From: an uncultured Clostridia bacterium
GTDB lineage: Bacteria; Bacillota; Clostridia; Christensenellales; Borkfalkiaceae
Assembly: GCA_944354265.1 (NCBI GenBank)
Contig: CALVPX010000007.1
Coordinates: 1-54,703, forward strand
Direction of reading: 5' to 3'
Length of the DNA: 54,703 nucleotides
Part shown: in pieces, positions 27,360 to 46,693 of the stretch
Numbering within the stretch: position 1 is the stretch's first letter
Layout: each line of letters begins with the position of its first letter
The notes under the pieces: generated by a model
What the model was told of the DNA's origin: nothing
The model's database searches: none
What the model saw: only the letters and a program-made list of their open reading frames with translations
Translations under genes and position numbers: made by a program

Positions 27360-29993
27360 TTATATTTCTTCACTACCATCCACCTCCACATCCTCTAGTG
27401 GACAATCTAGATTATTATTCCTCCTTTCTTCAAAACGATTTTGTCCAGCAGAAAGAGGTTTAATCTTATTATATTGCGATTCACCATTATCTTCCTCAAC
27501 AGGTCTATATAAAGAAGGATTATCCGAAGCATCATAGAAATTTTGATCAATTTTATGATATTTTAAATTTTGACTCCTCAAAGCCTTAAAATCTACTTCG
27601 CCAATAACAAAGTAGTTATTTAATCCACCTTTTAGCTTGACAATATCCATAAATACATGACTGTATGGACCGCTTATTCGAGAATCTCCATAAATATTAG
27701 CGTTAGATTGTGCAACAAAACAGGATGCGTCTCTGACAAATGAAGACACTATATTAGAAAAATAATAAGTATCTTTATTAAATACTGGCATAAAAAGAAT
27801 CTCTATCTTATCACAAAGTAAAGCCCTGTCTTTTATACTGGTTGCCTCGTAGCAAGTCATTGTTGAATATTTGTAAACACCATTATCTATAACAATATAA
27901 TAAGGAATTTTTGCCTCTTGATACCCATAATTTTCTTCGAGACAAAATTCTCTTTCTGACGATGGAAAATAATTTTTCCATTTGAGTAAAGTTAGGTCTA
28001 ATTCATTATCGCGAATTAAGGTACAATTAACTAATTTATTGTCTAGTATAATATGTGTAAGTCCAGTAATTATTGAAATACCAATCTGACGACTATATTT
28101 TGCAATTTCAAGGGCGCAATTTGCGGGTAATGAAAACTCCGGAAACAGAATCATACTTGCCCCTGCATATTTTGCTTGTTTTATAAGCTGCTTAAACTTC
28201 TTTAGATTATATGATTTAGGAAATGTCCCGGCTATGTCAGTTTCTTTTAGATCGTCAAGAGAAAAATTCATATTGGCCACTGCTACCTTTACATTTTCAC
28301 AATCAGTTTCCAAAGTATCCTGTTTGATAATCAAATTAATTTTATCGATATTATTTATTTCACATAATTTGCTTATGCTAAAGCCATTTATTTTTTTGTA
28401 CAGATCAATAGCATGAGCTATCATATTCTCATCTATATGACTCGATTTTATTGTATAATAGAATGTTATCTCATCAAATGTGGTAACAAGTGGATACAGT
28501 TCATCTGTTTCATCTGAATCTATTTTATTAATATGTTCAATAATTCGGTCTTGACTAATATTACACAAAAGATACTTCTCATATCTTTTATCTGAATTTT
28601 TTGCAAAATTAAATTCTAAACGCAATGCTTTTTTAAGTTTATTTTCCGCATTTAAAAGTTCACCGCTATCAATATGCTCTATTTTTACTTCTGAAATAGC
28701 ACCATCAATACGCTCTTTAAAAAAACTTTTATCAAATTCCAATAAATTTTTCCAACAGCTATAAAGGTTAATTAAGTCACTATCAGTCAAGTTACGCACT
28801 TGCTCGTATTTTTCATCTTCTCTTGAATCAATGCAATTAATTAGCCTTTTCAAATAATCATGCTTATACATTGAATATTCATCAAAGTCATCTTCGTTAA
28901 AGTCCATTTCCTCAATAACATCCATTGACGGGCTGATTATTTTATTGATCTTCGCCTTCAAGCTGCTAAGTGGATACCCTGCCCTACGATAAATAAACTT
29001 TATTTTGTTATTATTAAGTATATACATACTATTATTACTAAGCGAAGTTTTTACATAATACTTATTATCTTGAATACCCCGGCGATTAAATATATTTCCA
29101 AATTTACTTTCAATTATTTTACTTGTTTCCACATTATCATCTGGGATAACCATAAGCAAATCATCAACATAGCGAGCATAGACGTCGCAGATCTTTTCCA
29201 TTTGTCTATCAAAATTTTCAAGCAAAAGATTAAAAATACAGGCAGATGAAAACAAGCCTATTGGTAAATGCACATGATTCTTTATTCTTTGAGCATCATT
29301 AGGTATAAGGTTGTCCAATATTTTAGAATAATATCGATACAAATTTTTTTCAAATTCATATATCGGGTTATCTCTATTTTCCCTTATGTGGTTATTTAAA
29401 AATTCATTTATATCAAAATATACATTATAGTAACTACGAGTAAAATCCATCTTTACTATAATTTTATTTTCATTTTTTGCGGGTCCGTCAAGATATTTAT
29501 ATACTTTATCTTTCCACAATTTATATTGAGAATGAAAATTTGCAAATAATAATTTATTCTCCAAAATATTTCCATCTTGATTCCCATTCTTAATTGCCCA
29601 TAAGCGTTTATCAAAGTCATTACCGAATGAGCACTCGCTAGATTCAATATTTTCAAAGAGATTTAACGTGAACAAGATATCGACAAGATAGAATTCTAAC
29701 GGCATATCAATAAATACATTAAAATTATCCACCGCTATTTGCCCATTATCTCCACGAACGCCATCCTTTTTAGGATAAATTAAATATGAAATTCTCTTGC
29801 CGCTTAACATATTATGTTTTTTGCTAAAAAGACCACGTAATTGTCCTGTCATTTTCGCAAATGTGTCTGCCTGAAGAGACTTCTCAAAATTAATAATTTT
29901 ATCTTTTAAGTAAGATGCCGGAGAAGTATAATATATATAATTTTTCAATTTTTGATAAGCCCATTTCAAAGAATTAGCATTAACCTCTATCAT
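27360..29993 (-). CDS. Reverse transcriptase-nitrilase fusion (DRT1/UG1-like antiphage RT)
   Basis: 877 residues. N-terminal reverse transcriptase of the retron/group II-like 'unknown group' kind: motif A KMDFTRSYYN (D183), motif B-like LPIGLFSSACIFN (243-255) and catalytic YVDD at 275-278. The C-terminal carbon-nitrogen hydrolase (about residues 565-820) carries an apparent Glu-Lys-Cys triad: LFPEFSLP (E619), LLKWKNYF (K671 or K673), TMTCYEA (C714). This architecture is that of DRT type 1 (UG1) and the related nitrilase-linked UG groups, which protect against phages; the mechanism of the nitrilase is not settled. The gene is much more AT-rich than its neighbours, stands alone between a terminator and HipBA, and has AGAGGA before its ATG. 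Confidence 0.9.
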   Translation of the reverse strand: MIEVNANSLKWAYQKLKNYIYYTSPASYLKDKIINFEKSLQADTFAKMTGQLRGLFSKKHNMLSGKRISYLIYPKKDGVRGDNGQIAVDNFNVFIDMPLEFYLVDILFTLNLFENIESSECSFGNDFDKRLWAIKNGNQDGNILENKLLFANFHSQYKLWKDKVYKYLDGPAKNENKIIVKMDFTRSYYNVYFDINEFLNNHIRENRDNPIYEFEKNLYRYYSKILDNLIPNDAQRIKNHVHLPIGLFSSACIFNLLLENFDRQMEKICDVYARYVDDLLMVIPDDNVETSKIIESKFGNIFNRRGIQDNKYYVKTSLSNNSMYILNNNKIKFIYRRAGYPLSSLKAKINKIISPSMDVIEEMDFNEDDFDEYSMYKHDYLKRLINCIDSREDEKYEQVRNLTDSDLINLYSCWKNLLEFDKSFFKERIDGAISEVKIEHIDSGELLNAENKLKKALRLEFNFAKNSDKRYEKYLLCNISQDRIIEHINKIDSDETDELYPLVTTFDEITFYYTIKSSHIDENMIAHAIDLYKKINGFSISKLCEINNIDKINLIIKQDTLETDCENVKVAVANMNFSLDDLKETDIAGTFPKSYNLKKFKQLIKQAKYAGASMILFPEFSLPANCALEIAKYSRQIGISIITGLTHIILDNKLVNCTLIRDNELDLTLLKWKNYFPSSEREFCLEENYGYQEAKIPYYIVIDNGVYKYSTMTCYEATSIKDRALLCDKIEILFMPVFNKDTYYFSNIVSSFVRDASCFVAQSNANIYGDSRISGPYSHVFMDIVKLKGGLNNYFVIGEVDFKALRSQNLKYHKIDQNFYDASDNPSLYRPVEEDNGESQYNKIKPLSAGQNRFEERRNNNLDCPLEDVEVDGSEEI

Positions 29994-30068
29994 AATTTCC
30001 TCTTAATGTAAAATGTTCAAATTTTGACCTGCAAAATATAATATTTAACAATTAATAAATTGCATTTA

Positions 30069-31157
30069 TTATAAATTATTTTTAACTTTTCCAATGATTC
30101 TCTTACACTTCTCAATATCCAAAGCCGTCTGGCGGGCGACTTCTAACAAATCTTTCTCCGCAGGATTGCCGCTGCCGGCTGCCGTCATCTCATGCTCGGC
30201 TTTATCGGGTGTGCAAGTTATATCGTAAAACGGAGACAACTCGTAACCGCCCAGCTTTTCGTCAAAAAGGAAGGCAAAATTTTTGCCGTGGTCGTCCTTA
30301 TTGCCGTAAAAAACGTTGAAGCACATTCTGCCGAAAGCCTCGTAAGAATCGCGTTCATCGGCACATATTCGCTGGGTAACCTTGATTAAATGGATATAAT
30401 CGAGGTTGGGAATTCTGTGTGAAGTCTCTAGGAGCGAGGATAGCGAAATCATGTGTACCCTCCCCTCAGGCGTTCTGTCAAATCGCTTTGCGCCGAAATA
30501 ACCCGAACAACTATCCGAAGGAAACAGTCGGCACTCATTTATATTCAACCCGCATTTTTTAGCGGCAAGATTTGCTTTATACTCCTCCTCGCCAATATCG
30601 GGAGGGTCAAGGCGGCAGGGGAATTTTACTATCCATTCATCGCCGTCAATTTTAATGTGCGCCTTGGGGCGGGCACCGCCGCTCGAACCGCCGAGGCTGT
30701 AAATTTCGTCGAGTGTTGCGCTATCTGCGTCGTCATTTAAAATGTCGTTTACTTCCCTGCATATCCGGTCAAGTTCGACTGTCTGCGCATAGTCCAGCTC
30801 GCTTTGATTGGGTTCAAAAGTAAGCCCGCCCAGCCCCTGACCGCTTATCAGCGTGAGTTTGGTGAGCGGAGACAGGCGGTTGTAATTTATGCCGCGCTTT
30901 GCCAGCATACGAACGACGAGAAGTTCGCCCCAACCGTCGGGCAGACAGTCGGCAAAAACACCGTAAAGCCCCTCGAATATGTCCTTTCTATTGATAAAAA
31001 CCCTGTCTTCAAGCGGCAGCGAAAAGGGGGATATGTTGAAGCCGTTTTTCAGCCATTTTTCGTCATACTGAAAGGCGATGCCCTCGTCGAGCTGAGCGAG
31101 ATACCCGACGGTTTTGCCGTTGTATTTTACAGTAAGTTTTTTGATATCGGTAATCAT
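30069..31157 (-). CDS. hipA: HipA-like serine/threonine kinase toxin
   Basis: 362-residue HipA-family protein. Residues 1-110 form the HipA N-terminal domain (LPDGWGELLVVRML). The kinase core shows the P-loop-like GGSSGGARPK (156-165), catalytic loop NVFYGNKDDHGKN (281-293) and the metal-binding YDIT (311-314). HipA kinases phosphorylate a translation component such as glutamyl-tRNA synthetase and cause growth arrest; the target here is unknown. It overlaps hipB by 4 bp. The pair sits between RT-nitrilase and the TIR operon and could stabilise the island or act in defence. Confidence 0.93.
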   Translation of the reverse strand: MITDIKKLTVKYNGKTVGYLAQLDEGIAFQYDEKWLKNGFNISPFSLPLEDRVFINRKDIFEGLYGVFADCLPDGWGELLVVRMLAKRGINYNRLSPLTKLTLISGQGLGGLTFEPNQSELDYAQTVELDRICREVNDILNDDADSATLDEIYSLGGSSGGARPKAHIKIDGDEWIVKFPCRLDPPDIGEEEYKANLAAKKCGLNINECRLFPSDSCSGYFGAKRFDRTPEGRVHMISLSSLLETSHRIPNLDYIHLIKVTQRICADERDSYEAFGRMCFNVFYGNKDDHGKNFAFLFDEKLGGYELSPFYDITCTPDKAEHEMTAAGSGNPAEKDLLEVARQTALDIEKCKRIIGKVKNNL

Positions 31158-31447
31158 AATTTTAAGTCCCTGATGTTTGTGACGGGCGGCTTTTTGAAGA
31201 GTTCGTTGAAATCTTCAAGGCAACCGAGCGCGTTGGCGATTTTCACGAGCGAAAGAAGGGATATTTCGCCCGTCTGCTCAAACCTGCGTATCGAACCATA
31301 GCTCACGCCCGTGCGCTCGGCAAGCTGCTTTTGGGTGAGCTTTTTTGCCTTCCTCGCCGCCTTTTCGCGCTTTACAAGCTCATATACCGTGCCCGTCAAC
31401 GACTGCGCCGGCACAAAATCGGATATATCAAATGTATTCTTAATCAT
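31154..31447 (-). CDS. hipB: HipB-like HTH antitoxin
   Basis: 97-residue protein with a Cro/CI helix-turn-helix (KKLTQKQLAERTGVSYGSIR..E) at about residues 38-66, followed by a tail. It precedes hipA with a 4-bp overlap. By family precedent it neutralises HipA and represses the operon; three CTAATATTTTA repeats directly upstream are likely operators. Confidence 0.92.
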   Translation of the reverse strand: MIKNTFDISDFVPAQSLTGTVYELVKREKAARKAKKLTQKQLAERTGVSYGSIRRFEQTGEISLLSLVKIANALGCLEDFNELFKKPPVTNIRDLKL

Positions 31448-31669: not shown

Positions 31670-34552
31670 TCAGGTGTACTTTATCATCTTGAAATATTTT
31701 TCCTTATGGTTGTTCTCGCCCCTGTTGTCGTAGGCAGAAACATAGGGTATGAAGCCCATAAGGTTGTAGAGGCTCATCGCCGAGATGTTATTTTCGTAGA
31801 CGGACAACACAACGTTTACGCCCGTCTGCTTTTCGGCGACCCTTATGATATTGTTCAGCATACATTTACCGTAGCCGCGGTTACGGTAGCTTTCGTCCAC
31901 GCATATATCCGAGACATAGTAGTTGTCTCCTATGGCGTCGTTGAAGGTATCGCACAGGCTTTCAAAAGCTCGACAGGTTTCCTCGGTTATGGGCACCTTT
32001 GCTGCGTTGAAGGCGTTGACCATGACGCTTTCGTCCCATACGGGCAGGGTGCGGTAGAGTGTTGCCGCGGCGATTACACCGTTATCGGTCTTAGCGCTCG
32101 CAATGCGTAGCAGGCGCACATATTTTTTATTATAGACCGAGTGACCCTTATCGAAGAGAATTGTCAGCACCTTAACGGCATTTTCCATATTGCCGAACAT
32201 TCGTTGATATAAGATATCGGAGCAATATATCAGCTCGGCTGCCTTTTTGTAATCCGCCCTGTTTTCGAGCTGTTCAAACGAGGCGCTGACATTGGGCAGA
32301 TATGCGTTGTAGGGAATGATGTGGGGGTTTATCCACACATACTCCTCCCTGCCTGAACGGTTAGGAATATGCAGACATTTTTTGACGTTGGGCACGCAAT
32401 AATAGGCTTCGCCCGTGTGCAGAACCTCGTTGGAAATTATCTTTATCTTGAGGGCCTTCTTGCTTGTTTCGCTATCGACGGACAGATAGGCGTACCTGTA
32501 GCCGTCCTGCGACATGACGCTCTGCGAGCATATACCGATGACGGGGTATATCGCGCCCTCGATGGGGGCGTCCCTGTTGGGTGAACCATCGCGCATATAG
32601 CCGAGATACTCGCAAAAATTTTCCTGCAGTCTGTACAACCAAGAGTTAACCGAACGAACATCGCCGAACGAGGAGACTATGCGCTGTTTGAAGGAAGCAA
32701 GGATGTCGGAATTTATCAGTCCGCGCTTGCCCGTCATGTCGTAGAACTGCTCGTTCTTGTTTGTGTTACGCACGTTTAATGAGGCGTTGAGTTTTTCCAG
32801 CTCCTCGAAAGAATCCTCTACGAGCGCCTTCAGCTTGCCAAGCGTTCCGCTGTCGAGATCCTTTATGAGGCACATCGCGTTGTAGCGCTCGTAGATATTT
32901 CTGCGGGCGGTAGACGTGGTCTGGCGGAAGAAATCGTGGCTTATGTAAGACATCTGCTTATTCCCTGAGTCGGAGAAGAAGAGCATCTCGCTCTCCTCTA
33001 TATCCCTGATTTTCTGCTTGTCGTAATAGCTGAGCAACCCGTCGTAAAAGATAACTATAAACATGTTGAAGTTTATAATTTTATTGGCGTAGTAGATGAC
33101 CTTTTCCTTGGGGTTGAGGGATGTATTTTCGTAGACGCCGTTGATATCGTCCAAAATTTCTGTGACTGACGAGAGTGAATCGCTGAAAGACACGCTGACC
33201 TCGTTTGCGGTGAGCAGTTTTGTGGCAAAGAAGATGAGCGCCTGAACCTGACAGTTGACGATGTTATTTGTGTTCCTCAAGGTGAGTTTGCTTGTCGGGT
33301 CGCGGATTATTTCGTAAGTTTCCTCCAGCTTTCTGACGTTTTCGCCAAACCTGAGCCTGAAGGTGTTCTTTACCGCATTATAGCTTAAATCGGTATTTTT
33401 GAAGAGGTAGGTCAGAAGATTATATATGCCGACTTCGAGAAGCAGGAAGATAAAAATTTCGTCCCAATGGATTATTTGGGAATTGCCGAGCTTTTTGAAC
33501 ACCTCGCCATAATCGCCGCGATAGTGGTTATACACCTTTCTTTTGCTGTCGATGCTGATGAGGTCTGATATCGTCATTGCAAGATACTTTATGTACTTGT
33601 TGTCGACGAAAAAGAAATCCCTAAAAAAATAGTTATCACTGCCTCCCTGAACGTTAAAAAGGCGGTATTTGAGCATAAAGTCTTCTATCGCAGTGTCACT
33701 CTCCACGCAGACCTTATAATTTTTTATGTCAGTGTAGTCTGAAGAATGTTTGTTTATAAAAACAATTTTAAACTCCATTGTGGCGAACAGCGGGGCATAT
33801 TCGGCCGCGAGGAGCTGGTTCTTTTTGGGGTTATTCGTCGTGAACTTGCGCGGGTCGTCTATCCAGATGCCATACAGGTAGTCGATCTGCCCGTTTATTT
33901 CGGTCAGCAGTTCGTCAAGACTGATGGCCTCGCCGTCGACGGTGAGGCTGACCGTTCTGAGCGGTTTGTTGCAGTTTGGCAGGGGAACATATTCGGCGGT
34001 AGCGTTACCCAAAAACGGGAAGGCGCGGAAAAACTTTTTTAAGTTGTCGAAGCCAAACTGCGCGTCGTACCTGCTGGAGAGCATGCGCTTTTTGAGGGCG
34101 AAGATAAATTTGCTGAGGTCGTTGCCCAGCCCCGCAAAATTGAAGTAGCCATCCATCCCCACCTTTTTTATGAAGCCGTCGGCAGGGGAGAGAGACGAGT
34201 CAACCTGCAAGTTCAAAAGCACGTTTTCCACTAGGTTGAAGTCCAAGCGCCGCATGGAATAGCACTCGTCGAACATGTTGTATAGTCGCACCATGGAGTT
34301 TGAAAAGGACGATATCTCCAGGCTACGCTCCTCGGCGTTCAGCCGCTCGAACCACGCCTTGTAATTTACAAATTTTTTGTATGTTATGAGCGTGACCAAA
34401 TAGAGTGTGTTTTTGAAATAGTCAATATACTTGCCTATATTTGAAAGGAAAGAACTGCTGGCTTCGCCCGACTCAAAAATGATATCTCTGAGTACCTTAT
34501 CGGGAATGAGCCTAATTATTTCATTGCGACGCGCTGTCAATTCCTCTGTCAT
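31670..34552 (-). CDS. Large unknown protein with C-terminal GNAT acetyltransferase domain
   Basis: 960 residues. The first about 780 residues are mostly helical, without a family I recognise; they are rich in Phe, Tyr and Asn, with no transmembrane helix or nucleotide motif seen. The C-terminus (about 800-950) is a GNAT acetyltransferase: ISDICVDESYRNRGYGK-like acetyl-CoA loop at about 890-896 (RNRGYG) and NISAMSLYNLMGF. Last gene of a four-gene operon (TIR2, 671-residue protein, ParA-like ATPase, this gene). Its ATG lies inside the ATPase gene (32-bp overlap), with AAAGGTG upstream, which implies coupled translation. It could modify a target protein, tRNA or small molecule, with the N-terminal part acting as sensor. 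This is inference; the GNAT call is firm. Confidence 0.8.
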   Translation of the reverse strand: MTEELTARRNEIIRLIPDKVLRDIIFESGEASSSFLSNIGKYIDYFKNTLYLVTLITYKKFVNYKAWFERLNAEERSLEISSFSNSMVRLYNMFDECYSMRRLDFNLVENVLLNLQVDSSLSPADGFIKKVGMDGYFNFAGLGNDLSKFIFALKKRMLSSRYDAQFGFDNLKKFFRAFPFLGNATAEYVPLPNCNKPLRTVSLTVDGEAISLDELLTEINGQIDYLYGIWIDDPRKFTTNNPKKNQLLAAEYAPLFATMEFKIVFINKHSSDYTDIKNYKVCVESDTAIEDFMLKYRLFNVQGGSDNYFFRDFFFVDNKYIKYLAMTISDLISIDSKRKVYNHYRGDYGEVFKKLGNSQIIHWDEIFIFLLLEVGIYNLLTYLFKNTDLSYNAVKNTFRLRFGENVRKLEETYEIIRDPTSKLTLRNTNNIVNCQVQALIFFATKLLTANEVSVSFSDSLSSVTEILDDINGVYENTSLNPKEKVIYYANKIINFNMFIVIFYDGLLSYYDKQKIRDIEESEMLFFSDSGNKQMSYISHDFFRQTTSTARRNIYERYNAMCLIKDLDSGTLGKLKALVEDSFEELEKLNASLNVRNTNKNEQFYDMTGKRGLINSDILASFKQRIVSSFGDVRSVNSWLYRLQENFCEYLGYMRDGSPNRDAPIEGAIYPVIGICSQSVMSQDGYRYAYLSVDSETSKKALKIKIISNEVLHTGEAYYCVPNVKKCLHIPNRSGREEYVWINPHIIPYNAYLPNVSASFEQLENRADYKKAAELIYCSDILYQRMFGNMENAVKVLTILFDKGHSVYNKKYVRLLRIASAKTDNGVIAAATLYRTLPVWDESVMVNAFNAAKVPITEETCRAFESLCDTFNDAIGDNYYVSDICVDESYRNRGYGKCMLNNIIRVAEKQTGVNVVLSVYENNISAMSLYNLMGFIPYVSAYDNRGENNHKEKYFKMIKYT

Positions 34553-35450
34553 CTGCTATCACCTTTGCAAGCTTTTTAAATTTCCTCTGCGCTTCGGTTT
34601 CATCTTCGGCCAGTTTGTAAATTTCGGATTTCGTGAGCTCATACTCCTTGGCCTTGAGGCGCAAATTCGTCTCCTCGAATTTGAACAGCCTGACCTCGTG
34701 AATTCCTCCATCGTCTATTATGTCGGTAGTAACCTTGTTGTGACCCGCCTCCCCTGCAACGATAAGGTCGTCCTTTATTCTGCGCAGAATGTTTTCAATG
34801 CTGTATATCGTGCCTTCGGCCGAGGGCACGGCGTTGGGAACGATTATGTAATTCTTGTTGTCGAAGTTCTTCTGGCGGGCAATGAATTCCTTGGTGCCCT
34901 CCTTGAACTGCTTGGTTATCCTCATTGCGATGACGATTTTGTCGGAGATGCGCAGAGCCACGCTGGCCGGCAACTGTCCGCCCGCAGGGTTATCCATGAC
35001 CAGCGCCTTGCAGCCGAATTTTTCGAGCCGGTTGGCGAAACTTTCAAGCTCGACGTTGCGTCCGTCGTAGTTACTGTCGCCGTTGAGCTTTTGGTTTGAA
35101 TGAGCGGTTATGAAGAGGATATTGCCGTTCTTCTCCTCGCCGAGGCCGAGCATCTTGCCGACGGGTATCATCTTTCCGAGGATTTCCTCCTTGGTCGCAA
35201 ACGCGTCGGCGGTGATGTCCGTCTGGTTGAGAACCTTCACGATGTCGAGCTTGTCGGTGGTATCTGTCCCCTCGTCGACCAGAAGGTAGGAAAGGCCCTT
35301 ACTGTCTATGTCGAGATCGAGCACCACAACAGGCTCTTCGGGCGTTGCGCCGAGTTCGTCGGCGAGATAGGACACCGTATTGTAAAGCATCGATGTTCTG
35401 CCCGCGCCACCTTTATATGAAAAAAACGAAACTTTAAGCATATTACTCAC
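34521..35450 (-). CDS. ParA/MinD-like (SIMIBI) ATPase
   Basis: 309-residue P-loop ATPase. The deviant Walker A YKGGAGRTS (12-20) has the signature Lys of the ParA/MinD class but Arg in place of the usual second Lys. Later segments VVVLDLDIDSKGL and LVMDNPAGG match the switch I and Walker B regions. It is not beside a ParB gene and has no obvious DNA-binding tail, so plasmid partition is unlikely. It lies between the 671-residue protein (36-bp gap) and the GNAT protein (32-bp overlap). Such ATPases occur as switches or positioning factors in multi-gene conflict systems; here it is probably the regulatory engine. Confidence 0.88.
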   Translation of the reverse strand: MSNMLKVSFFSYKGGAGRTSMLYNTVSYLADELGATPEEPVVVLDLDIDSKGLSYLLVDEGTDTTDKLDIVKVLNQTDITADAFATKEEILGKMIPVGKMLGLGEEKNGNILFITAHSNQKLNGDSNYDGRNVELESFANRLEKFGCKALVMDNPAGGQLPASVALRISDKIVIAMRITKQFKEGTKEFIARQKNFDNKNYIIVPNAVPSAEGTIYSIENILRRIKDDLIVAGEAGHNKVTTDIIDDGGIHEVRLFKFEETNLRLKAKEYELTKSEIYKLAEDETEAQRKFKKLAKVIADDRGIDSASQ

Positions 35451-35486
35451 CTGTAATGTAAAAATTATTTTAAAAAGCCTTTGGGC

Positions 35487-37502
35487 TTAAAATTTGAACA
35501 ACTCTGTAAGTCTGGCTATGAGAACGTTTTTCTGTTGTTCGTCGCTGACGCCGCGTATGCTGTCCTTAATCTTGTCCGAAGTAGTGGCGTCAACTAGCGT
35601 AGAAAGAAAGAGTATGCTTTGTAGGCGCTTGTCAGTCACAAGCCTTGCCTTCATGGTCTCCTTCTCGGCATTGGTGCAGGTGAGCGCCTTTATTATGTAG
35701 TCAACGGCGTAGCCGAACTGCTCCTCGAAACAGCTTTCGAAGTATTGTCTGAAGTTTTTTTCGAAGAGTGACTGCGCCAGCTTTTCGACCTCGGTGTCGA
35801 GCGGCGAACGCTTGTTGAGCGCGTCGTTCAGCGCTATGTTGTACTTCTCCTCCCTGTCCTTGAGTTCCTTTTCGTACCTGACGCGCTCTGCAACGAGCTG
35901 GTCCGTCTTCTCCTTTACCTTGCCGCGTTGAATATCGGCGTCGAGGAGCTCCTTTTCGTACTTTTCGTAATACAGGTAGAAAGAGTCTATGGCATAGATG
36001 TAGTACAGATTATTGTTTACGCTGAAGCCCTCCTTGCGCCAGTACCAGCCATCAGGAGACTTGTTTTCGAGTATCCACACCAAGTTGTCGCGCATTTCCT
36101 TCTGGGGATATTTGATGATATAGTTGAATATCAGGTTGTACGTGTTACAGTACAGCGGAACGAGTTCATAGGGTGATATTGCGCTCTTTTTGCGCCAGTT
36201 CTGCATTATGTGGCTGACGCTGTCGGGACACCCGTCTTCGCCGAGGGAGAAGTTTTCTATCAGATCTTCCCGATTCTTGTCCTTATAGTCTATATATATC
36301 TTCTTTATGTTGGTGAGCGCGAACTGGATATTCTGGTATATGCTCGACTTGCCGACACTGAGATAGTCGTCGTCGATGCCAGCGTTGATGAGAATTGCGA
36401 AGGCGAACAGCGAGTTCATTATGTGGTTGTTTTTGCTGTTGCCGATCATGCCGACAGAGATTGGATTGAGGTTTTTATCGATATAGTCGAAGGATATGTT
36501 GACGTTATTCTTTCTCATCTTCGCTTCGATATATCTGCCCGCCGAAGCCGTCAGGCGACGGAATGTATCCAGCGTCTCCTTATTCTTGTTATAGAATTTT
36601 TTATCGCTGCAGTACTTTGCATACCTCTTTCTGTCTTCATCGCTTAGGTTGTTTTTGTTGCGGTCGCCGAAAAGCTCCGTTCCGTTGTCCATCGAATCAT
36701 AAAAATCCTCCATCGAGTTATAGATAGAGATGAATGCGTTGGTGCCGTAGTATGTGTAATATAACGACGTGTCATACTCTGAAGACTCGTCATCGGCGGG
36801 CTTTTGAAAGGCCCAGCCGCGGTGGGTAACCATAGAGCCGACGTTGGTTCTGCCGATTTTTTTGCCCTCGATTTCGTATACAAACTGATCTTCGTTGACG
36901 AGGGCTGCGTCGTTAAGCATCTTTGACGCGTCAATTACGAGCGTCTCCGTAAATTTGAGCAGGCCGGCCGCGGTTTCCACAATTTCGCCACGGATATTGA
37001 CAGTCGAAGGAAGCTTTGCGCCGCCTCCCGAAAACATGGTTTTCAGAAGATCGTCGCGCAGGTCGACGAACGTAGAGATGACTTTGGAAGCACTCTCCAC
37101 ATACGTTGTGATTTTATAGTCGGCGTTATCCCAATAAGGCGTAGCGTCGAAGACGATACCGCCTTCCTGATATATGCTGGCGAAGACTTTTTCGATGAGG
37201 CCGAAGTAGATGTCATTGTACTGGCTGATGTCGACGCCGAGAGACTTGAGTTCGAGGAAAGTGGACAGCGCCATTATGTGTGTGATTAGGCCGAATTTCT
37301 GCCTGTAATCCTTATCGTCCAACGGAAAGCTGCCAGCCTTTTTGTCGTAGAACTTTACAAAGTCCTTCAGAATTTTTGCACCGACTTTTTCCGCAGGCTG
37401 ATAGGCATATATCATTCTGTCACTGCCTGCACCAGGAATCCCCCCTATTTTGTTTTTGGTGATAATGTCGAGTACATCTTCGTAGTTGCTAGTGATTCCC
37501 AT
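35487..37502 (-). CDS. Unknown helical protein, possible alpha/alpha toroid plus coiled coil
   Basis: 671 residues, no family recognised. Residues about 1-510 contain many paired helices; the segment near 480-500 (ENKSPDGWYWRKEG) resembles repeats of alpha/alpha-toroid proteins such as terpene cyclases or glycoside hydrolases, but catalytic motifs are not evident. A charged coiled coil follows at about 524-560 (Lys/Glu/Arg-rich), then a C-terminal helical domain. It starts 3 nt after the TIR2 stop and precedes the ATPase, so it is probably a structural or sensor subunit of the same complex. Function unknown. Confidence 0.7.
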   Translation of the reverse strand: MGITSNYEDVLDIITKNKIGGIPGAGSDRMIYAYQPAEKVGAKILKDFVKFYDKKAGSFPLDDKDYRQKFGLITHIMALSTFLELKSLGVDISQYNDIYFGLIEKVFASIYQEGGIVFDATPYWDNADYKITTYVESASKVISTFVDLRDDLLKTMFSGGGAKLPSTVNIRGEIVETAAGLLKFTETLVIDASKMLNDAALVNEDQFVYEIEGKKIGRTNVGSMVTHRGWAFQKPADDESSEYDTSLYYTYYGTNAFISIYNSMEDFYDSMDNGTELFGDRNKNNLSDEDRKRYAKYCSDKKFYNKNKETLDTFRRLTASAGRYIEAKMRKNNVNISFDYIDKNLNPISVGMIGNSKNNHIMNSLFAFAILINAGIDDDYLSVGKSSIYQNIQFALTNIKKIYIDYKDKNREDLIENFSLGEDGCPDSVSHIMQNWRKKSAISPYELVPLYCNTYNLIFNYIIKYPQKEMRDNLVWILENKSPDGWYWRKEGFSVNNNLYYIYAIDSFYLYYEKYEKELLDADIQRGKVKEKTDQLVAERVRYEKELKDREEKYNIALNDALNKRSPLDTEVEKLAQSLFEKNFRQYFESCFEEQFGYAVDYIIKALTCTNAEKETMKARLVTDKRLQSILFLSTLVDATTSDKIKDSIRGVSDEQQKNVLIARLTELFKF

Positions 37503-37505
37503 AAA

Positions 37506-38525
37506 TCATTTCCTCCGGTTTATTTTATCGTCATCGAGCACGAGCACAAGCCTTACGCCCGCCGCAAACTGATTATTTTCATAATTTATGTATCCGTTCA
37601 GCGGACGGTTTGCCGAGTTATACAAAAGCAACTCTCCGTCATTGCCCCTTACCCAAAACGCACGGAAGCTCTGCGAGCGGCGGCTATCGGCATAGTCGGT
37701 AGGAACGGCCTCGCCAATCAAGTCGCCATAGGTATCTATTAGCGATTTTTTTATGAGGCAAAGACTGACGACCGACTCGTCTCCGTCGAGGCCGAATTTT
37801 TCCGCGTCGATATCCTCTATTGCTGAGTAATCGACAAAATCGAGGCAATATTTTGACACGAAGTACAGAAGATTTTTGTCGCGGCGGAACATCTCCCAAA
37901 CAATCGGCAACTGTTTTTCGCCATCGCCATGCGGATATGTGCCCAGGCTGTATTCGCGCAGCTTTTCGCCATCGCGACGAATATAGTTTGTGCCGCGCAT
38001 CTCAATCTGCCTGAGGTTGCTGGTGGCTCCGTTGTTGGCACAGAAAGCGAGCATTCTGTCGGCGCTGTCGTCGTCGGACAGGCACAGATAAAGCCTGTCC
38101 CCATTCTTCATTATGGACACGAAAGATGAGATATTGTTTCTGAACTCGGTTTCACAGAGGGCTATGAGTGCGTACTTATACTCGCTGTAGCCTATGAATA
38201 CGGGCAGAACTTCAAAATCATTGGTCGAACCAAGTTTTTTCAGCGCAAGGTCAAACTCCCTGAACACGGCCGAACTGACGAGCGAATTTTCGCTTATGAA
38301 AAATATTACGCCCCTGCAGTTTTCGGACTGGATGATGCTCTCCACCTCCTCATTCCACACGTCACCGTCGTTGAGCTCGGCGTCGTACCAATAATTTGCG
38401 CCGCCCTCATACAGGCGATGAAGATAGTTGAAGACAATATCCCTGTCCTTATGCGAATAGGATATGAAAACATATCTGTTGTTCCCGCCGCCGACGCGGT
38501 CGAGATATGTCATTGGCTTATTCAT
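37506..38525 (-). CDS. TIR-domain protein with DUF6273-like C-terminus (TIR2)
   Basis: 339 residues. The N-terminal TIR domain (about 17-125) begins YVFISYSHKDRD and carries VFREFDLAL, where E90 is the likely catalytic Glu of NAD+-cleaving TIRs. The C-terminal half (about 190-335) has LREYSLGTYPHG, LPIVWEMFRRDKN, LYFVSKYCLDF, FRAFWVRG and a final GVRLVLVL, matching the pattern of DUF6273 (usually G.YP, PI.W..L, L..S...LD, GVRP). Such a domain may bind a ligand and control the TIR enzyme. First gene of the four-gene operon: AAGGAG 7 nt before ATG and its own promoter at 38615-38643. Confidence 0.88.
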   Translation of the reverse strand: MNKPMTYLDRVGGGNNRYVFISYSHKDRDIVFNYLHRLYEGGANYWYDAELNDGDVWNEEVESIIQSENCRGVIFFISENSLVSSAVFREFDLALKKLGSTNDFEVLPVFIGYSEYKYALIALCETEFRNNISSFVSIMKNGDRLYLCLSDDDSADRMLAFCANNGATSNLRQIEMRGTNYIRRDGEKLREYSLGTYPHGDGEKQLPIVWEMFRRDKNLLYFVSKYCLDFVDYSAIEDIDAEKFGLDGDESVVSLCLIKKSLIDTYGDLIGEAVPTDYADSRRSQSFRAFWVRGNDGELLLYNSANRPLNGYINYENNQFAAGVRLVLVLDDDKINRRK

Positions 38526-38614
38526 AATTTACTCCTTAAGCTCATTCATGTGACAAAAACATGCCGTTGCGACATAAATTTACATTTTTTGCGCAAATTC
38601 ATCATTACAGCTTA

Positions 38615-38643
38615 ATTTTACCATATTAATCTATCTTTTGCAA
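38615..38643 (-). promoter_or_regulatory. Promoter of the TIR2 operon
   Basis: Minus-strand TTGCAA, 17 nt, TAAAAT with an extended TGG. It lies about 90 nt upstream of the TIR2 start codon and after the terminator at 38686-38719. Confidence 0.6.
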
Positions 38644-38685
38644 TAGTCAAAATAAAGAAAATCCGCATTTTGTTCAATAAATTTA

Positions 38686-38719
38686 AAAACTCAAACTTCC
38701 GCGCTGAAGTTTGAGTTTT
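38686..38719. terminator. Terminator between the TIR1-Nudix and TIR2 operons
   Basis: Perfect 14-bp stem AAAACTCAAACTTC / GAAGTTTGAGTTTT with a 6-nt loop and A/T tracts on both sides. It ends the TIR1-Nudix transcript, so the set is made from two transcripts. Confidence 0.85.
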
Positions 38720-38839
38720 AATAAATTTATGCATTTTGTTTTGGACTGATCAGCCATATGAACAGCCCGTATTCGCCGTAAATATCCGAAACTAATTACC
38801 GCATAACCATCCCGCGACAACCAATATTGCAGAGGTAAA

Positions 38840-39493
38840 TTATAATTTACCCTTAAATTGAGCAAACGCCACCGCGCTGAGAGAGTACCCGTCACATATT
38901 TCCCCGCAAAGCGCCATTTCGGCAAACTGCTCTGCAGTTACAAGACGGTAATCGGCAATTCCTTCTCTGTCGTCGTTATTCACGAATCGCACATCCTCGT
39001 CCGTCTCCGCAATATATATATCCGCCAATCCGGCACTTAGACCCGTATCTGCACAGACTGTGCCGAGATAGAAGAGGGCGATATTTTTCATGCCAGTTTC
39101 CTCGAATATTTCCTTGGCCGCGTTCTGTTCTGAGGATAACCATTTTTCGCCGAAGCCGCGCGGAATTTCCCACGAAAAACGCCTTAAACTGTGACGAAAA
39201 TGTTGCAACAGCAGAATTCGTTTGCGGCACAATATCAGCACGACAACCGCGCCTTTCTCCACCGCGGAGATTATTCTGATATATGTACCCACCGAGTTGT
39301 CGGGAAATATAACCGCGTCCCGCAACAACATAATATATTCGTCGCTGTATATGATGCCTGTTTCTTTACCGGTCTGCGCCTCAACCTTCGCTATCTGCTC
39401 GCGGTCTGTAATAATGTTTACGGCATTTTCTTCGTCCACATTTGTAAACAAGTCAGGACGTTGCTGCATGAGCTGTATGTAATCATTCTTCAT
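38840..39493 (-). CDS. Nudix hydrolase (ADP-ribose pyrophosphatase-like)
   Basis: 217 residues. The Nudix box lies at residues 113-135, running from GFGEKW to KEIFEETGM; the metal-binding Glu residues E128, E131 and E132 are present, while the first Glu of the consensus is Leu and the Arg is Lys. The preceding FSWEIPRG matches the ELPAG element of ADP-ribose pyrophosphatases. The start is ATG 39493, eight nt after GGAGG and inside the end of TIR1 (11-bp overlap), so the two are co-translated. Next to a TIR gene, the likely substrate is ADP-ribose, a cyclic ADP-ribose derivative or NAD+. It may make, erase or use a TIR signal; the substrate is inferred. Confidence 0.88.
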   Translation of the reverse strand: MKNDYIQLMQQRPDLFTNVDEENAVNIITDREQIAKVEAQTGKETGIIYSDEYIMLLRDAVIFPDNSVGTYIRIISAVEKGAVVVLILCRKRILLLQHFRHSLRRFSWEIPRGFGEKWLSSEQNAAKEIFEETGMKNIALFYLGTVCADTGLSAGLADIYIAETDEDVRFVNNDDREGIADYRLVTAEQFAEMALCGEICDGYSLSAVAFAQFKGKL

Positions 39494-41549
39494 CGTCATT
39501 CCCTCCGCTAAGACGGTCAATCAATTTATTCAACAGGAATTCCCCCTGTTCATGCGTGCGGCCGTTAAACAGTCTTATTTCTGTCAGGAACAGATTATTT
39601 TTCTCCTCACCATATTCGCCGCAGATATAATCTATGGTAAACAACTGCTTTCCGTTGCCCACAGGCAAATTGTTCTGTGTGAAGTATGGTTTTTTCTGCC
39701 CCGCGCGATATACGGCGTTGACCTGTTTGTTGCCGATGCGAAAAACAATAGTGACGGCGCCATCGACTCTTTTACAGCTCAACCCCATGTTACTATGAGC
39801 TATTTCATCAATCCATGCCGCATAGGCCTGCCATACAACTGCGATATAGTAAAAATCTATATCCCAATGTCCCGAACGGACGCCCGCCTCCTCTACAAGC
39901 CTTATATACTGTTCCCACTGAGGCAGAGTGCGGGCGGCAGCCACTTGCGACAGCGTCATCTCTCCGGCAAAGGGCATTATCAATTCAGTGAGAAATGATT
40001 GAGGACTGAATGAGCCCACCGCATATAATAATTCCTCCGCGGTAATCTCACGACCAGTCGGCATCAATTCATACAATGCCGTAGGGCTCAATGCGCTGTC
40101 GTAGGGAATAGTTATCTTTACGCCGTACGCATTTGCAAAATTAAGATTATAACGCATATCAATTATCTGCTTGAGTATGGCGGCAAACGGTTTTTGCCGG
40201 TCTATAAGACAATCGGGTACGGGAGTTGCGTCGCAGACAATGTTGTCCTTATAAAATTGCTCCCTGCTGTACCCATTATTAAATTCCTCCCTCGTATGAA
40301 TGGCGCGGCGCTGGATGTCTTTCCACTTCTTTTTAAAACGACTCTGTTCTTCGGCGCTCAGACCGAAACTTTCGCCTATCTGCAGTATCCTCTGCTCGTT
40401 TTCCGCCATGGTCACACAAAAATTATGGAAATATAAGCCGAGCGAATTTTCTGTCAGGCGGAAATTGGTAATGTCGTCGTCCCAATCCATGCGGAGGCAA
40501 TATACCGAGTGCTCCAGACAAAGGCGCGTCCACGCCGCCCAATCGACACTGCCATACCCCGCTTTATCAAAGGGACTTTTTTCTCTGTAGAGCACGAGCA
40601 CTATAGAGCCGTTTTCAATAAGGCGGCAAAACGCTTCATAGTCCGCACTGTCCAGCTTTGAATACCATTGGATAAACACAGCACTGTTCTGCAAAAAAGC
40701 TCTGTTCACTATGAGCTGACGGAAATGAAGAAGACTACGCAGAACCTCTCTGCCCTGGATTGAATTTCTCATCGCTTTGAGTTGCTCATCCTTAAGGCCG
40801 TTGCGCATAAAGCGCCGGTCTTCATAAAAGTATGTGGGCACCCATTGATTGTCCATGACAAGTGGATAGACCGCGTTTGAAGAAACCTCCCCTGAAGTCA
40901 CCTTGTAAAACTTCGCCTCCCTGCCATCTAGACTACAACAAACCAATTGGGGATTGGCATAACGGTATATATACATTCCGTCGTTATCGAGCGTGTAGTC
41001 GAAATTCTGGACCGATAAAGCGCTACTGTTCCACAGGGGTAGGCCCAGCTTTCTCCTCTTATCATCGTCAACAACGCCACAGTTCCAACATTCGGCGCCA
41101 ATAAGGCGGTTTATGAACCTTTCCGTCACTCCACCGTACAGCCACATGGCTAAATTCTGCCTGGAGGTAAGTGTAACTCGCACATCTGAGGGGAAATCTG
41201 AAATAGGTATCCTGTTCAGGAACACAGGTAAAATTACATACGAAGGATCTTGAGCCTTTAATTTTATTGCCATGCGCAATTCACGCATGACCTCTGTCCT
41301 GTTTTCACACCCGGCACCTAGAAATATCACGAACGCACGGCTACATTTTAGTCTTTCGTCTATTACCTCTCTCCAGTCGCTACCGGGTGCAATCCCTTCC
41401 CCCATCATATCATACCAGATGCGGAATCCATTGCCGCACATCGCCCTGATTATGCCTGATACAACGCGTATGTCCTCCCTGGAATAACTTATGAATATGT
41501 ATGGCTCTTTGTCATAGTAAACTTCCATGCTGCTATCGATAATCTCCAT
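39483..41549 (-). CDS. TIR-domain protein with large unknown C-terminal region (TIR1)
   Basis: 688 residues from ATG 41549 (GGAGG 5 nt upstream). The N-terminal TIR domain (about 16-125) has YIFISYSREDIR and a helix TEVMRELRMAI, where E90 is the likely catalytic Glu. The remaining about 560 residues match no family I know; they contain repeated aromatic-rich beta segments and short helices, no membrane span. An in-frame extension to 41657 runs through the promoter and is rejected. First gene of the TIR1-Nudix operon. By family precedent it may cleave NAD+ or make a cyclic nucleotide signal when activated by phage, with the C-terminal part sensing the trigger. Confidence 0.87.
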   Translation of the reverse strand: MEIIDSSMEVYYDKEPYIFISYSREDIRVVSGIIRAMCGNGFRIWYDMMGEGIAPGSDWREVIDERLKCSRAFVIFLGAGCENRTEVMRELRMAIKLKAQDPSYVILPVFLNRIPISDFPSDVRVTLTSRQNLAMWLYGGVTERFINRLIGAECWNCGVVDDDKRRKLGLPLWNSSALSVQNFDYTLDNDGMYIYRYANPQLVCCSLDGREAKFYKVTSGEVSSNAVYPLVMDNQWVPTYFYEDRRFMRNGLKDEQLKAMRNSIQGREVLRSLLHFRQLIVNRAFLQNSAVFIQWYSKLDSADYEAFCRLIENGSIVLVLYREKSPFDKAGYGSVDWAAWTRLCLEHSVYCLRMDWDDDITNFRLTENSLGLYFHNFCVTMAENEQRILQIGESFGLSAEEQSRFKKKWKDIQRRAIHTREEFNNGYSREQFYKDNIVCDATPVPDCLIDRQKPFAAILKQIIDMRYNLNFANAYGVKITIPYDSALSPTALYELMPTGREITAEELLYAVGSFSPQSFLTELIMPFAGEMTLSQVAAARTLPQWEQYIRLVEEAGVRSGHWDIDFYYIAVVWQAYAAWIDEIAHSNMGLSCKRVDGAVTIVFRIGNKQVNAVYRAGQKKPYFTQNNLPVGNGKQLFTIDYICGEYGEEKNNLFLTEIRLFNGRTHEQGEFLLNKLIDRLSGGNDDEE

Positions 41550-42146: not shown

Positions 42147-43193
42147 TTAATCACAAAATAAATCATTGAACTCGGGCAAATCCACATTTCTACGCAATAA
42201 AAAAATGTCAATGCTGCCCCCAAACTTTGAGTCGCAAAACACCTCTATTTCTACATCCAGCCAGCCCTTAAGTGATTTTGTCATATTACAATACCCTGTT
42301 GTGTCCAATACCTCTGGTAGCTCTAAGGACAACCTGCCATTTCCAATACATACATCTATATTATCAAGCAAAAACCGTGTTTCGACGCAACCGAAACGCT
42401 TTATAGGTTCTATGCTGTCACACAGTCCCAGAAGGAAAGAAAACCCATCTTTTGCCGAAAGTATGGAATGCTCGCCTCCTTTTACAAGCGACTCAAGACC
42501 AGCTTTTTTATATTCCTCTTTATGCTTATCATCTACCGTCCACATATTGTGTCACATTATAGCACGCGCGGCAATTTTATGAAGGTCGTATAGGGCAGTA
42601 CCATAATAGAGATTATTTCTCACCGTTGATCTATCATTTTTCAGAACTTCTTTAAACAGTTTTTGCAATTTCGAATATAGAATCATTCCGCCGACTATAC
42701 CATGGTCTGCAACTCTGTGCTTTCTCCTGTATTTATAATATTTTAACGCCAGAGGGAAATCGAGCTCGTCATAACACAATTTTTTATATTCATTACTCAT
42801 TCTGAATGGCGCACTACCTTCTTCATAGACATATCCGACGTCATGAAAAAGACAGGTCAGAAACCATGTATAGAGCCACGGATTTTTGCCATGCTTAGCC
42901 TCATCGTACACATTAATGCCAAAATCCCCAGAGCCATCCGAATAAAATTTCTCATGCAATGCAATACCCAAAAGATATGTCGATAAAATATGTCTACTTC
43001 TGTTTGCCGGTAACTGAATATTGCTGAGAAGAGATTGCTTCCCGCCGCAAGCAAAATAATCACTGATAAATTTCCATGGTTCATTTTCATCTTTTGATGT
43101 AATTGCCAAAAAAATATCAGATGCGCCATTGCTATAGTATTGCCACCTTTTACGATCTGTCGAAATACCCGAATATACCTCGCTTAATTTCAT
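42147..43193 (-). pseudogene. HD-domain protein interrupted by an in-frame TGA
   Basis: One reading frame of about 348 codons, cut by TGA at 42552-42554. The first part (213 residues) has HD-phosphohydrolase features: RHILSTYLLG (H68), FLTCLFHDVGY (H117, D118) and HRVADHGIVGG (H164). The frame then reads AARAIM-stop-HNMWTVDDKH and continues for 132 residues including LLGLCDSIEPIKRFG, a motif expected later in the same HD fold. The second part has no good ribosome-binding site. It is therefore one gene with a nonsense mutation, or a readthrough gene (TGA followed by C is a leaky context). Follows AbiH with a 64-bp gap. HD enzymes hydrolyse nucleotides or cyclic nucleotides, which would fit a defence role. 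Confidence 0.7.
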
Positions 43194-44952: not shown

Positions 44953-44985
44953 ATCCCAACCCCTCCATGTCGCTGAGTAATTTAT

Positions 44986-45014
44986 ATTATATCACATAAC
45001 ACAGTTAAACACAA
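44986..45014 (-). promoter_or_regulatory. Promoter of the AbiH-HD operon
   Basis: Minus-strand TTGTGT, 17 nt, TATAAT, about 35 nt before the AbiH start codon. Confidence 0.55.
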
Positions 45015-45189
45015 CACCTCGGAATATTGAATTTGACAGATTATGACGAATGAGCCATTATGTTTTTTATACAAAGAGGCAGGTTGTCATTAACAACCCA
45101 CATTTATTCGTAATATTTTATGTTATATAATTCATTTCACTTATTTAATCTCTTTTTTAACGAATTAATTAAATTAAATACGCGCCGTA

Positions 45190-46392
45190 TTGGAAGCGAG
45201 TTTGAAAGCGAGCAAATACACTTTTGGCTACTACCCTTACAGCTATCTTGTCGGCAACGACGAAAACCGCACGGCAACCATAGACGAGCCTGCGGCGGAG
45301 GTCGTACGGAAAATTTATCAAATGCGAATCGAGGGGCTGTCGCCCTATCAGATTGCAAGGCGGTTATCCGACGAAGGCATACCCAACCCCACTCTGTACC
45401 GCACTAAAAAGGACGGAGGAAAAATCAACAGGCAATGTCCGCCTTGGTGGAGCCATAAAACGGTGAGAGACATTTTATCAGACACCACCTACAAGGGCTG
45501 TACGGTACAGCACAGGCGCTCTACCATTTCCTACAAGAACCACAATACCTATTGGCGACCGCAGGAAGAATGGATAGTAAAGCAAAACGCCCACGAACCT
45601 TTCGTGAGCGAGGAAATCTGGGAGAAGGCACGGGAAGTTGCCCGCTCGGTATCGCGGGCAAAGAGGACAAAGAGCGGCATAAACTTTCCGCTGTCCGGCT
45701 TTATCTATTGCGCCGATTGCGGACACAAGATGAAGATAGTTCATTCCAAGAAAAAGCTGAAAGACGGCAGGGAATACGATTGCGAGTGCTATATCTGCCG
45801 CACCTATGCAAATCTCGGCAAGAACTACTGCACCATCCACGCCATTCAGCGAACGGACATCGAAGCACTTGTGTTGGCGGACATCCGCTCCAAGTTCGAT
45901 TTCATTCTAGAGGACGAAGATGTGGCGAGGGAAGAATTTTTGAAAGGGAAGTCCAAACGCTCCGCCTCATCGCGGGCTGCCGATAAAAGACAGCTAAAAG
46001 CCAAGCACAAGCGCGTGGAAGAATTGGACGTACTAATTCGAAGCGCCTTCGAGGACAAAGTCTTAAAGAAGATGCCCGAAAACTTGTGCAACTCACTCTG
46101 CGAAAGCTATCAGGTGGAACAGCAGACGCTGAAAGCCGAGATAGCTGCATTGGAGAAAAAATTGCAGGAAGAGAGCAAGGATGAAGCCGAAGTCGAGGAA
46201 TATATCAGGCGAATAAAGCTGTATGGCAGTTGCCCCGAACTGACGAGGGAAATGTGCCTGCAACTGATTGAATTTATTACAATCGACGCAAAGACGGAAC
46301 GAAACAACCGCTGGCACTCCCATGCACCGAGAAACATTCATATCTATTACAAACTGATAGATAAGGAACGCGCAAAACCTAATTATAACTAA
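45190..46392 (+). pseudogene. Truncated large serine recombinase (catalytic domain missing)
   Basis: 400 residues from a TTG at 45190. It begins inside the recombinase domain (FGYYPYSYLVG, then EVVRKIYQMRIEGLSPYQIARRL), continues with the zinc ribbon (CADCGHKM ... C.C.CR.Y.N.GK..C) and a coiled-coil tail. The N-terminal resolvase domain with the nucleophilic Ser (about 150-180 residues) is absent, and stop codons close the frame directly upstream at 45166-45177. No ribosome-binding site is seen. It cannot catalyse recombination and is a relic from an element. Confidence 0.85.
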
Positions 46393-46410
46393 ATTTGCAT
46401 TCCATTTTGA

Positions 46411-46572: not shown

Positions 46573-46628
46573 AATATATACAAATTCACAAAATAACACC
46601 GATTTTACGTTAATTACAACAAAAACCC

Positions 46629-46647
46629 CTTCCCAATTCCTTCCCAA
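46629..46647. other. Candidate integrase arm-type sites, right end
   Basis: CTTCCCAA at 46629-46636 and again at 46640-46647, 11 bp apart, 50 bp inside attR. The same word is paired near the left end (27275-27292) and at 42008-42025. Confidence 0.4.
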
Positions 46648-46653
46648 AGCAAC

Positions 46654-46684: not shown

Positions 46685-46693
46685 AAAATTGGG

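Follow-up and report, generated by a model that had tools for sequence, protein, structure and literature searches.

A modular, unnamed operon with TIR and CorA-like forms, mostly from Clostridia: a candidate anti-phage system

TIR effectors are well known, and the described systems that come closest to the locus studied here are Thoeris, the SAVED-TIR form of CBASS (cyclic oligonucleotide-based antiphage signalling system) and TIR-short-Ago. The locus is a minus-strand gene group of an uncultured Clostridia bacterium (Christensenellales; Borkfalkiaceae), in contig CALVPX010000007.1 of GenBank assembly GCA_944354265.1; positions 1 to 54,703 of this contig, the whole 54,703-nucleotide stretch that was analysed, are called the window. 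Six open reading frames (ORFs) are considered, namely TIR1 and a Nudix hydrolase, followed by TIR2, a 671-residue protein (“HEL”), a ParA/MinD-like ATPase and a 960-residue protein composed of a core region (“C750”) and a GNAT domain. An original prediction from the DNA letters had proposed all six as one block; as far as sequence comparison tells, only the last four form a recurring operon. We tentatively read TIR2-HEL-ATPase-C750::GNAT, at a little under an even chance, as one form of a modular and unnamed operon, probably anti-phage through abortive infection, with an amine-linked enzyme slot. Taken by itself, the defence role is likely on sequence grounds; the chemistry of the enzyme slot is what we infer from the enzyme families found there.

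With Thoeris, SAVED-TIR CBASS and TIR-short-Ago the locus shares a TIR domain with a catalytic-type Glu, the hallmark of TIR NADase effectors and likely the NAD+-consuming part, but the six window proteins are without a ThsA, CD-NTase or Argonaute match. A ThsA-type effector (SIR2-SLOG or Macro) was sought among them with PADLOC and a CD-NTase with Pfam, PADLOC and NCBIfam, neither giving a match; the PADLOC matches of both TIR proteins are confined to the TIR domain, with ThsB at E 0.019 and 0.029. A second likeness is to the CorA effector of type III CRISPR (signalling through S-adenosylmethionine (SAM)-AMP), since the membrane protein found instead of TIR in some loci resembles CorA by its PADLOC profile match; the difference is that no Cas10 label occurs among the annotated operon genes and no GMN string in four sequences of this protein. 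The ATPase belongs, by motif and profile match, to the broad group of NF047398 and the PADLOC candidate PDC-M28B, but it falls below the NCBIfam cut-off and its PDC-M28B match spans only ~120 residues. MinD/ParA-like domains also occur in another conflict system, agmatinase and arginase going unmentioned in the available portion of that source (PMC7159879), and phages are described as encoding polyamine genes (PMC9992855, in part).

No named system in PADLOC 2023, Pfam or NCBIfam matches the gene set, and the earlier suggestion of an unnamed TIR-based system agrees with the lack of any full PADLOC match. A literature search through titles, the starts of abstracts and the top part of long result lists found the gene set undescribed, although a prior description is possible. 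What appears to be new is the core together with the enzyme slot.

Core proteins and their recurrence

The constant core, well shown by its recurrence, consists of HEL, a KGGxGR-type ATPase and C750. When the 671-residue HEL protein alone was used as query in a family-level sample of 301 genomes, it was found in 10 of the 300 other genomes, with an ATPase homologue adjoining in 10/10; a C750 relative was present in eight of these ten loci when longer stretches were taken, with a short one in L021 and none detected in L019. At order level (396 genomes, own included), a HEL profile matched 25 genomes; four of the 24 others were already in the family set, and in all 20 newly fetched ones the ATPase adjoins the HEL homologue. 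Both searches are independent of the ATPase motif. Named species were scanned with an ATPase alignment; 110 loci were confirmed and the 80 best retained, and a tally of the ATPase motif in this set is circular because the set was drawn with it. HEL and ATPase stand in a single gene run in 72 of the 80; among the eight without a core call, the L122 sequence starts partway through the operon and the HEL of L139 is weak. Spacing is tight, within -60 to 60 bp for HEL-ATPase in 69/72 and for ATPase-C750 in 58/65. The mapped set comprises 110 stretches (L012-L021, L052-L071 and L072-L151); several contigs are identical between the G-labelled and the named loci, so that the counts of the two sets are not additive.

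The 72 core loci belong mainly to Clostridia (59), with Bacilli (6), other Bacillota (3) and single members of Bacteroidota, Fibrobacterota, Spirochaetota (Treponema) and a Methanomethylophilaceae archaeon. Their isolate names mostly suggest animal guts, and binning errors in metagenome-assembled genomes (MAGs) are possible. In a phylum-wide sample the HEL profile found its own genome alone (1/398). A distant version was observed in a Desulfuromonadales MAG (L139:8266-15171), where a HEL-like protein of 576 aa (profile E 1.5e-11, filters off) and an ATPase are accompanied by genes for a 241-aa protein, a CxxCxxCC protein, a 669-aa protein of no assigned family and a protein-arginine-methyltransferase-like enzyme, the last a further enzyme linked to arginine that lies next to the core.

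Conserved gene order across unrelated genomes, proposed in the original prediction as a check, therefore holds for TIR2, HEL, the ATPase and the 960-residue protein and fails for TIR1 and Nudix. Profile and structure searches, likewise proposed, recovered TIR, NUDIX and GNAT by Pfam and a fold hint for HEL, with no fold relative for C750. Searches of Pfam, PADLOC and NCBIfam up to E 1 gave no match for HEL of the window. Its AlphaFold2 model (64 sequences; mean predicted local distance difference test (pLDDT) 87.9, predicted template modelling score (pTM) 0.80) has (alpha/alpha)6 toroids as top Foldseek matches in the PDB (GH76, mannose isomerase, AGE epimerases); the best E is 9.4e-4, the sole one below 0.001, and template modelling scores by target are mostly ~0.45-0.63 in the top 25 rows. 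This likeness is a hint of fold and says nothing on function, as (alpha/alpha) toroids are common to many functions. HEL as a working glycosidase or epimerase was considered and rejected on the same grounds, the fold match being weak.

The ATPase, recognized from the start as ParA/MinD-like, is the KGGxGR variant (NF047398, KGGVGR-motif variant AAA ATPase: E 2.9e-15, 57.1 bits, below the 90-bit cut-off). C750 is homologous to stand-alone proteins of ~710-890 aa encoded after the ATPase; hence the earlier view of the 960-residue protein as a single sensor gives way to a core protein carrying an exchangeable GNAT end domain. In the C750::GNAT model (48 sequences, pLDDT 84.4, pTM 0.68) all of the best 50 PDB matches fall in the GNAT part and none in C750. 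No PADLOC model matched the HEL and C750 proteins (three of each scanned) better than E 0.03.

Effectors and enzymes beside the core

As judged from gene content, the effector and enzyme positions are shown to be exchangeable around this constant core. The anatomy was tabulated for 73 loci, the 72 named core loci and the window, whose row was entered by hand. CorA in L130 and L131, SpeD in L130 and TIR in L082 were also assigned by hand from maps, because a broken frame, opposite strand or wide gap kept these genes outside the automatic run. The effector is a TIR protein in 61 loci and a CorA-like membrane protein in eight; in L089, L115, L118 and L124 none is seen, a contig end cutting all four. 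The main enzyme is SpeD-like (43), a GNAT (12), a radical SAM protein (6) or a pyridoxal-phosphate (PLP) Orn/Lys/Arg decarboxylase (6), and none is seen in six, of which L085, L102, L104, L115 and L143 reach contig ends. The sixth, L144, is an archaeal copy of the operon (Methanomethylophilaceae MAG), where an asparaginase/GatD-like gene stands at the decarboxylase position (L144:14429-15721). An agmatine deiminase (15) or agmatinase (3) is added in 18 loci, always with SpeD (18/18).

All eight CorA-like loci are among the 18 with an agmatine enzyme. In eight of the ten loci with TIR plus deiminase, C750 is cut to ~230-270 aa (three tested match the first ~230 profile positions), and in the other two, L111 and L119, no C750 was detected. 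The PLP-decarboxylase form has TIR fused to C750 in 5/6 and an added CxxCxxCC protein; its L141 member gave no C750 match. On a tree of HEL plus ATPase (73 loci, IQ-TREE quick, 877 columns, SH-aLRT support only), the window groups with L072 and L073 (support 100), inside an eight-locus set with GNAT fused to C750 (support 100), itself inside a 13-locus set of all 12 GNAT loci and the truncated L085 (support 100); thus the form seen in the window has the look of one derived lineage. With rows without a label dropped, the labels change twice for the effector (minimum 1), three times for the main enzyme (minimum 3) and three times for the agmatine enzyme (minimum 2), and the exchanges therefore appear few and old, not frequent.

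On the effector side, Glu90, noted in the original prediction for both window TIRs, is present in both and in 46/46 aligned TIR domains, that is, the two window TIRs and 44 TIR proteins of 335-437 aa (TIRs of ~590 aa and fused ones were left out). The C-terminal ~190 aa of TIR2 have detectable relatives only in TIR proteins of GNAT-type operons (phmmer). TIR2 is a probable suicide enzyme. The CorA-like family has 12 homologous ORFs in the mapped loci; the one protein scanned, L127, matches the PADLOC CorA model at E 4e-10, and two hydrophobic stretches near the C-terminus were seen by eye in L127, L117, L088 and L101. The string lacking in these four, GMN, is what we take to be the CorA motif. 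Within the named loci this family was seen only beside agmatine deiminase or agmatinase. From the CorA-like form it follows that the core may drive a membrane effector instead of TIR.

The GNAT is considered an exchangeable enzyme because other enzymes hold its place in other loci: it is fused to C750 in the window and its seven closest relatives, a separate gene in L079-L082, and replaced by the SpeD-like protein in most others. The window GNAT reads RNRGYG, and [RQ]xxGx[GA], presumably an acetyl-CoA-type motif, occurs in 10/11 GNATs tested, L072 being the one without. Against the PaiA spermidine/spermine N-acetyltransferase model NF053587 it reaches 32.2 bits (cut-off 250), and the best 50 Foldseek rows of C750::GNAT (205-242 columns, GNAT or GNAT-like) include PaiA and a viral polyamine acetyltransferase, also many protein acetyltransferases. 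A polyamine acetyltransferase activity of the window GNAT is thus weakly supported.

The SpeD-like protein is a tandem of two SpeD halves (an AdoMet-decarboxylase homologue). Its C-half keeps a Ser-His..His string in 41/43 and the F[ST]C Cys motif in 43/43, while the N-half has Gly at the pyruvoyl Ser position (before His) in 33/43 and Ser in 10/43, so it is not dead in every case. The L109 protein matched no PDB chain (phmmer, E 0.01). Neofunctionalised SpeD proteins, as far as their published account was available (Li et al., 2023; PMC10407285), have a catalytic set of Ser63, His68 and Cys83, and a Pro conserved in true AdoMet decarboxylases is lost in the SpeD-derived arginine decarboxylase; there, SpeB or AguA/AguB beside an anomalous SpeD is taken as a sign of arginine decarboxylase. 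The active-type C-half of the operon proteins reads SHIxxHY, without the HTxP of the N-half, the identity of the marked Pro being deduced from the text of that paper. The likeness lies in an orphan SpeD without SpeE, in the tandem SpeD-SpeD and in agmatine enzymes adjoining in some loci; here, unlike there, the N-half commonly has Gly, the C-half motif is kept and the gene lies inside a TIR/CorA operon (same source, in part).

As for the remaining enzymes, two agmatine deiminase-like proteins match TIGR03380 at E 1e-91 (306.8 and 307.6 bits, below the 381.8-bit cut-off), agmatine deiminases are the best PDB chains for that of L093, and the Cys motif is present in 14/15. One agmatinase-like protein matches TIGR01230 at E 1e-44 (153 bits vs a cut-off of 174). 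The PLP decarboxylase matches PF01276 at E 8.9e-72, its nearest PDB chains are Orn/Lys/Arg decarboxylases and its Lys motif is kept in 6/6; we take this and the deiminase Cys motif to be active-site motifs. The radical SAM protein is closest to PapB-type peptide maturases, below cut-off.

Possible roles of the enzyme position

An amine-acting slot is proposed because several unrelated enzyme families of one pathway meet in one operon type. The core would sense infection or an amine ligand, the ATPase would act as a switch that frees the effector, and the effector would remove NAD+ (TIR) or open the membrane (CorA-like), so that the cell stops. With lower confidence, the slot enzyme may make, remove or cap an arginine-derived amine, such as agmatine or putrescine, read by core or effector, and the window GNAT would acetylate that amine. 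A narrower proposal, possible if rather unlikely, is a new kind of bacterial immunity with a dedicated ligand derived from arginine, be it agmatine, putrescine or a capped form: the slot enzymes would set its level, the core would read it and the TIR or CorA-like protein would kill the infected cell.

A number of observations weigh against an anti-phage operon with an amine-linked slot. The flanks contain a modest number of known defence genes: 127 of 526 distinct flanking proteins, compared with PADLOC at E 1e-10, gave mad8 (4), mad3 (3), mad2 (3), Cas9 (1) and DrmC (1), and as these counts have no control set no enrichment is claimed. Mobile elements gave no relatives of HEL in plasmids or viral contigs (it was not searched in phages), of the ATPase alignment in viral contigs, of the 960-residue protein in phages or of one C750 in plasmids. 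The GNAT is without a specific amine tie, a RimI model scoring above a spermidine-acetyltransferase model, both below cut-off; the SpeD-, deiminase- and agmatinase-like proteins are all below NCBIfam cut-offs as well. The L101 deiminase is without the Cys motif, and the SpeD proteins of L113 and L131, both agmatinase loci, have Tyr for the second His. The archaeal asparaginase and the peptide-maturase-like radical SAM form misfit a strict polyamine theme. Finally, the tree places the recruitment of every type of enzyme at about one event each, so the convergence amounts to a handful of events, not 70 loci.

The slot enzymes could also be second effectors, released by the core on infection to deplete arginine, ornithine or SAM (in the archaeal form, asparagine) alongside the loss of NAD+ to TIR. 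A decarboxylase together with a deiminase or agmatinase would drive the consumption of arginine to its end, the L144 asparaginase would find a place, and the active-site motifs are mostly intact; a poor drain would however be expected of a GNAT or of a radical SAM protein resembling peptide maturases, and pyruvoyl-dependent SpeD-type decarboxylases are reported, in the part of the source at hand, to have considerably lower efficiency than the PLP type (PMC10407285). We regard this account as unlikely. Similarly unlikely is a maturase-like role, in which the slot enzymes would alter arginine side chains or N-termini of a core or effector protein and so license or restrain that protein. GNATs often act on proteins, and the PapB-like radical SAM protein and the methyltransferase-like gene after the distant L139 core would suit such a role, but the families of agmatine deiminase, agmatinase and Orn/Lys/Arg decarboxylase act on small molecules, and their presumed motifs are kept.

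It is very improbable that the SpeD forms simply serve polyamine biosynthesis as ordinary operons with their regulators, TIR being incidental. SpeD, agmatine deiminase and agmatinase do belong to polyamine-pathway families. Genome-wide scans for AdoMet_dc, spermidine synthase and OKR (Orn/Lys/Arg decarboxylase) covered 25 of the 31 G-labelled module genomes; the six excluded have forms that are cut, fused or of the radical SAM type. The operon SpeD is the sole AdoMet_dc match in 20/20 SpeD genomes (MAGs of 81-97% completeness), and a match to spermidine synthase (PF01564) is absent from 18 of them, the other two being G089 (marginal) and G763 (clear); the same search matched 11/14 control genomes. 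An OKR-family decarboxylase match lies elsewhere in 22/25 genomes, therefore the cells need not depend on the operon for amines. The patchy distribution also argues against this explanation, as does a TIR or CorA-like gene in 69/73 loci with the other four truncated.

Neighbouring genes in the window

The six minus-strand ORFs were confirmed in an ORF listing of the window (Table 1), with coordinates, strand and gaps as predicted: 3 bp between TIR2 and HEL, 36 bp between HEL and ATPase, and an overlap of 32 bp between ATPase and the 960-residue protein. The 11-bp Nudix/TIR1 overlap holds for a Nudix ATG at 39493 and becomes 38 bp from the TTG start of the listing. TIR1 has 688 aa from its ATG, or 724 aa if its open frame is followed to the GTG at position 41657. 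The Pfam matches to TIR_2 (both TIR proteins), GNAT and NUDIX are all above curated cut-offs.

Table 1. Positions of the operon, its neighbours and intergenic signals in the window.
Feature	Position	Strand	Basis
960-aa protein (C750::GNAT)	31670-34552	-	ORF
Core protein 3, C750, first ~760 residues of the 960-aa protein	32273..34552	-	homology to stand-alone proteins
GNAT domain fused to C750, exchangeable enzyme (boundary approximate)	31670..32272	-	Pfam PF00583, E 1.8e-9
Core protein 2, ParA/MinD-like ATPase, KGGxGR type (SYKGGAGRT), 309 aa	34521-35450	-	NF047398, alignment
Core protein 1, HEL, 671 aa, alpha/alpha-toroid-like body and long C-terminal helices	35487-37502	-	AlphaFold2/Foldseek
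TIR2, 339 aa, putative effector; TIR domain ~residues 18-113, catalytic-type Glu90	37506-38525	-	Pfam TIR_2, E 1.6e-13
Promoter-like sites upstream of TIR2	38615..38650	-	pattern match, weak
Terminator-like hairpin between Nudix and TIR2, 14 pairs, 4 G-C	38686..38719	-	pattern match
Nudix hydrolase, neighbour outside the module	38840-39520	-	Pfam NUDIX, E 3.8e-8
TIR1, neighbour outside the module	39483-41549	-	Pfam TIR_2, E 1e-13
DRT UG5-nitrilase reverse transcriptase	27360-29993		
HipA gene with helix-turn-helix-like partner	30069-31447		partner by eye
AbiH	43258-44952		
Serine recombinase	45190-46392		
tRNA-Leu	46694-46778		

TIR1-Nudix appears to be a separate neighbouring unit. A 314-bp gap divides it from the TIR2 unit and holds the terminator-like hairpin and minus-strand promoter-like sites, both called from patterns only; terminator-like sites number 2 in the region vs 0.5 expected, and promoter-like sites 3 vs 2.3, which is weak. 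The C-terminal part of TIR1 is an orphan region, its 518 aa (39483-41039) matching nothing in the 395 other genomes of the order and the 515 aa tested giving no Pfam match at E 0.1. Among the TIR1 matches listed the TIR domain alone is held in common, and neither TIR1 nor Nudix matched viral contigs. A single TIR-TIR-Nudix system made up of the six genes, which their adjacency on one strand would suggest, is extremely improbable given this orphan region, the intervening hairpin and profiles of Nudix and of the TIR1 C-terminal part that match the window only among the ORFs of the 110 mapped stretches, and the Nudix step of the original scheme is unsupported as part of the operon.

The predicted defence-island setting is borne out by AbiH and the reverse transcriptase nearby. 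The surroundings (27360-31447 and 43258-46778) adjoin rpoC/rpoB and make up a mixed defence island, which is possibly integrated. Between them, at 42147-43193, are two ORFs of 132 and 213 aa, the second with an HD-like FHDVGY string by eye and no Pfam match; they may belong with AbiH. Relatives of a RyR-domain protein (~750 aa if complete) were observed near 6/72 named core loci, namely L074 (partial), L075, L080, L081, L141 and L144 (split), and none is labelled in the window. The published RyR proteins, in the portion of the source available, are phage-encoded and act on ADP-ribose (ADPR)-type signals, specifically cyclic ADPR (PMC13232231), whereas these are neighbours on MAG contigs.

The operon would thus stand as an unnamed multi-gene TIR system defined by its core, not by its TIR. 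Recruitment to the same operon type has involved an acetyltransferase, a pair of decarboxylases unrelated to each other and a pair of likewise unrelated enzymes that consume agmatine. If these enzymes set a signal, arginine and polyamine chemistry would join nucleotides as an immune language.

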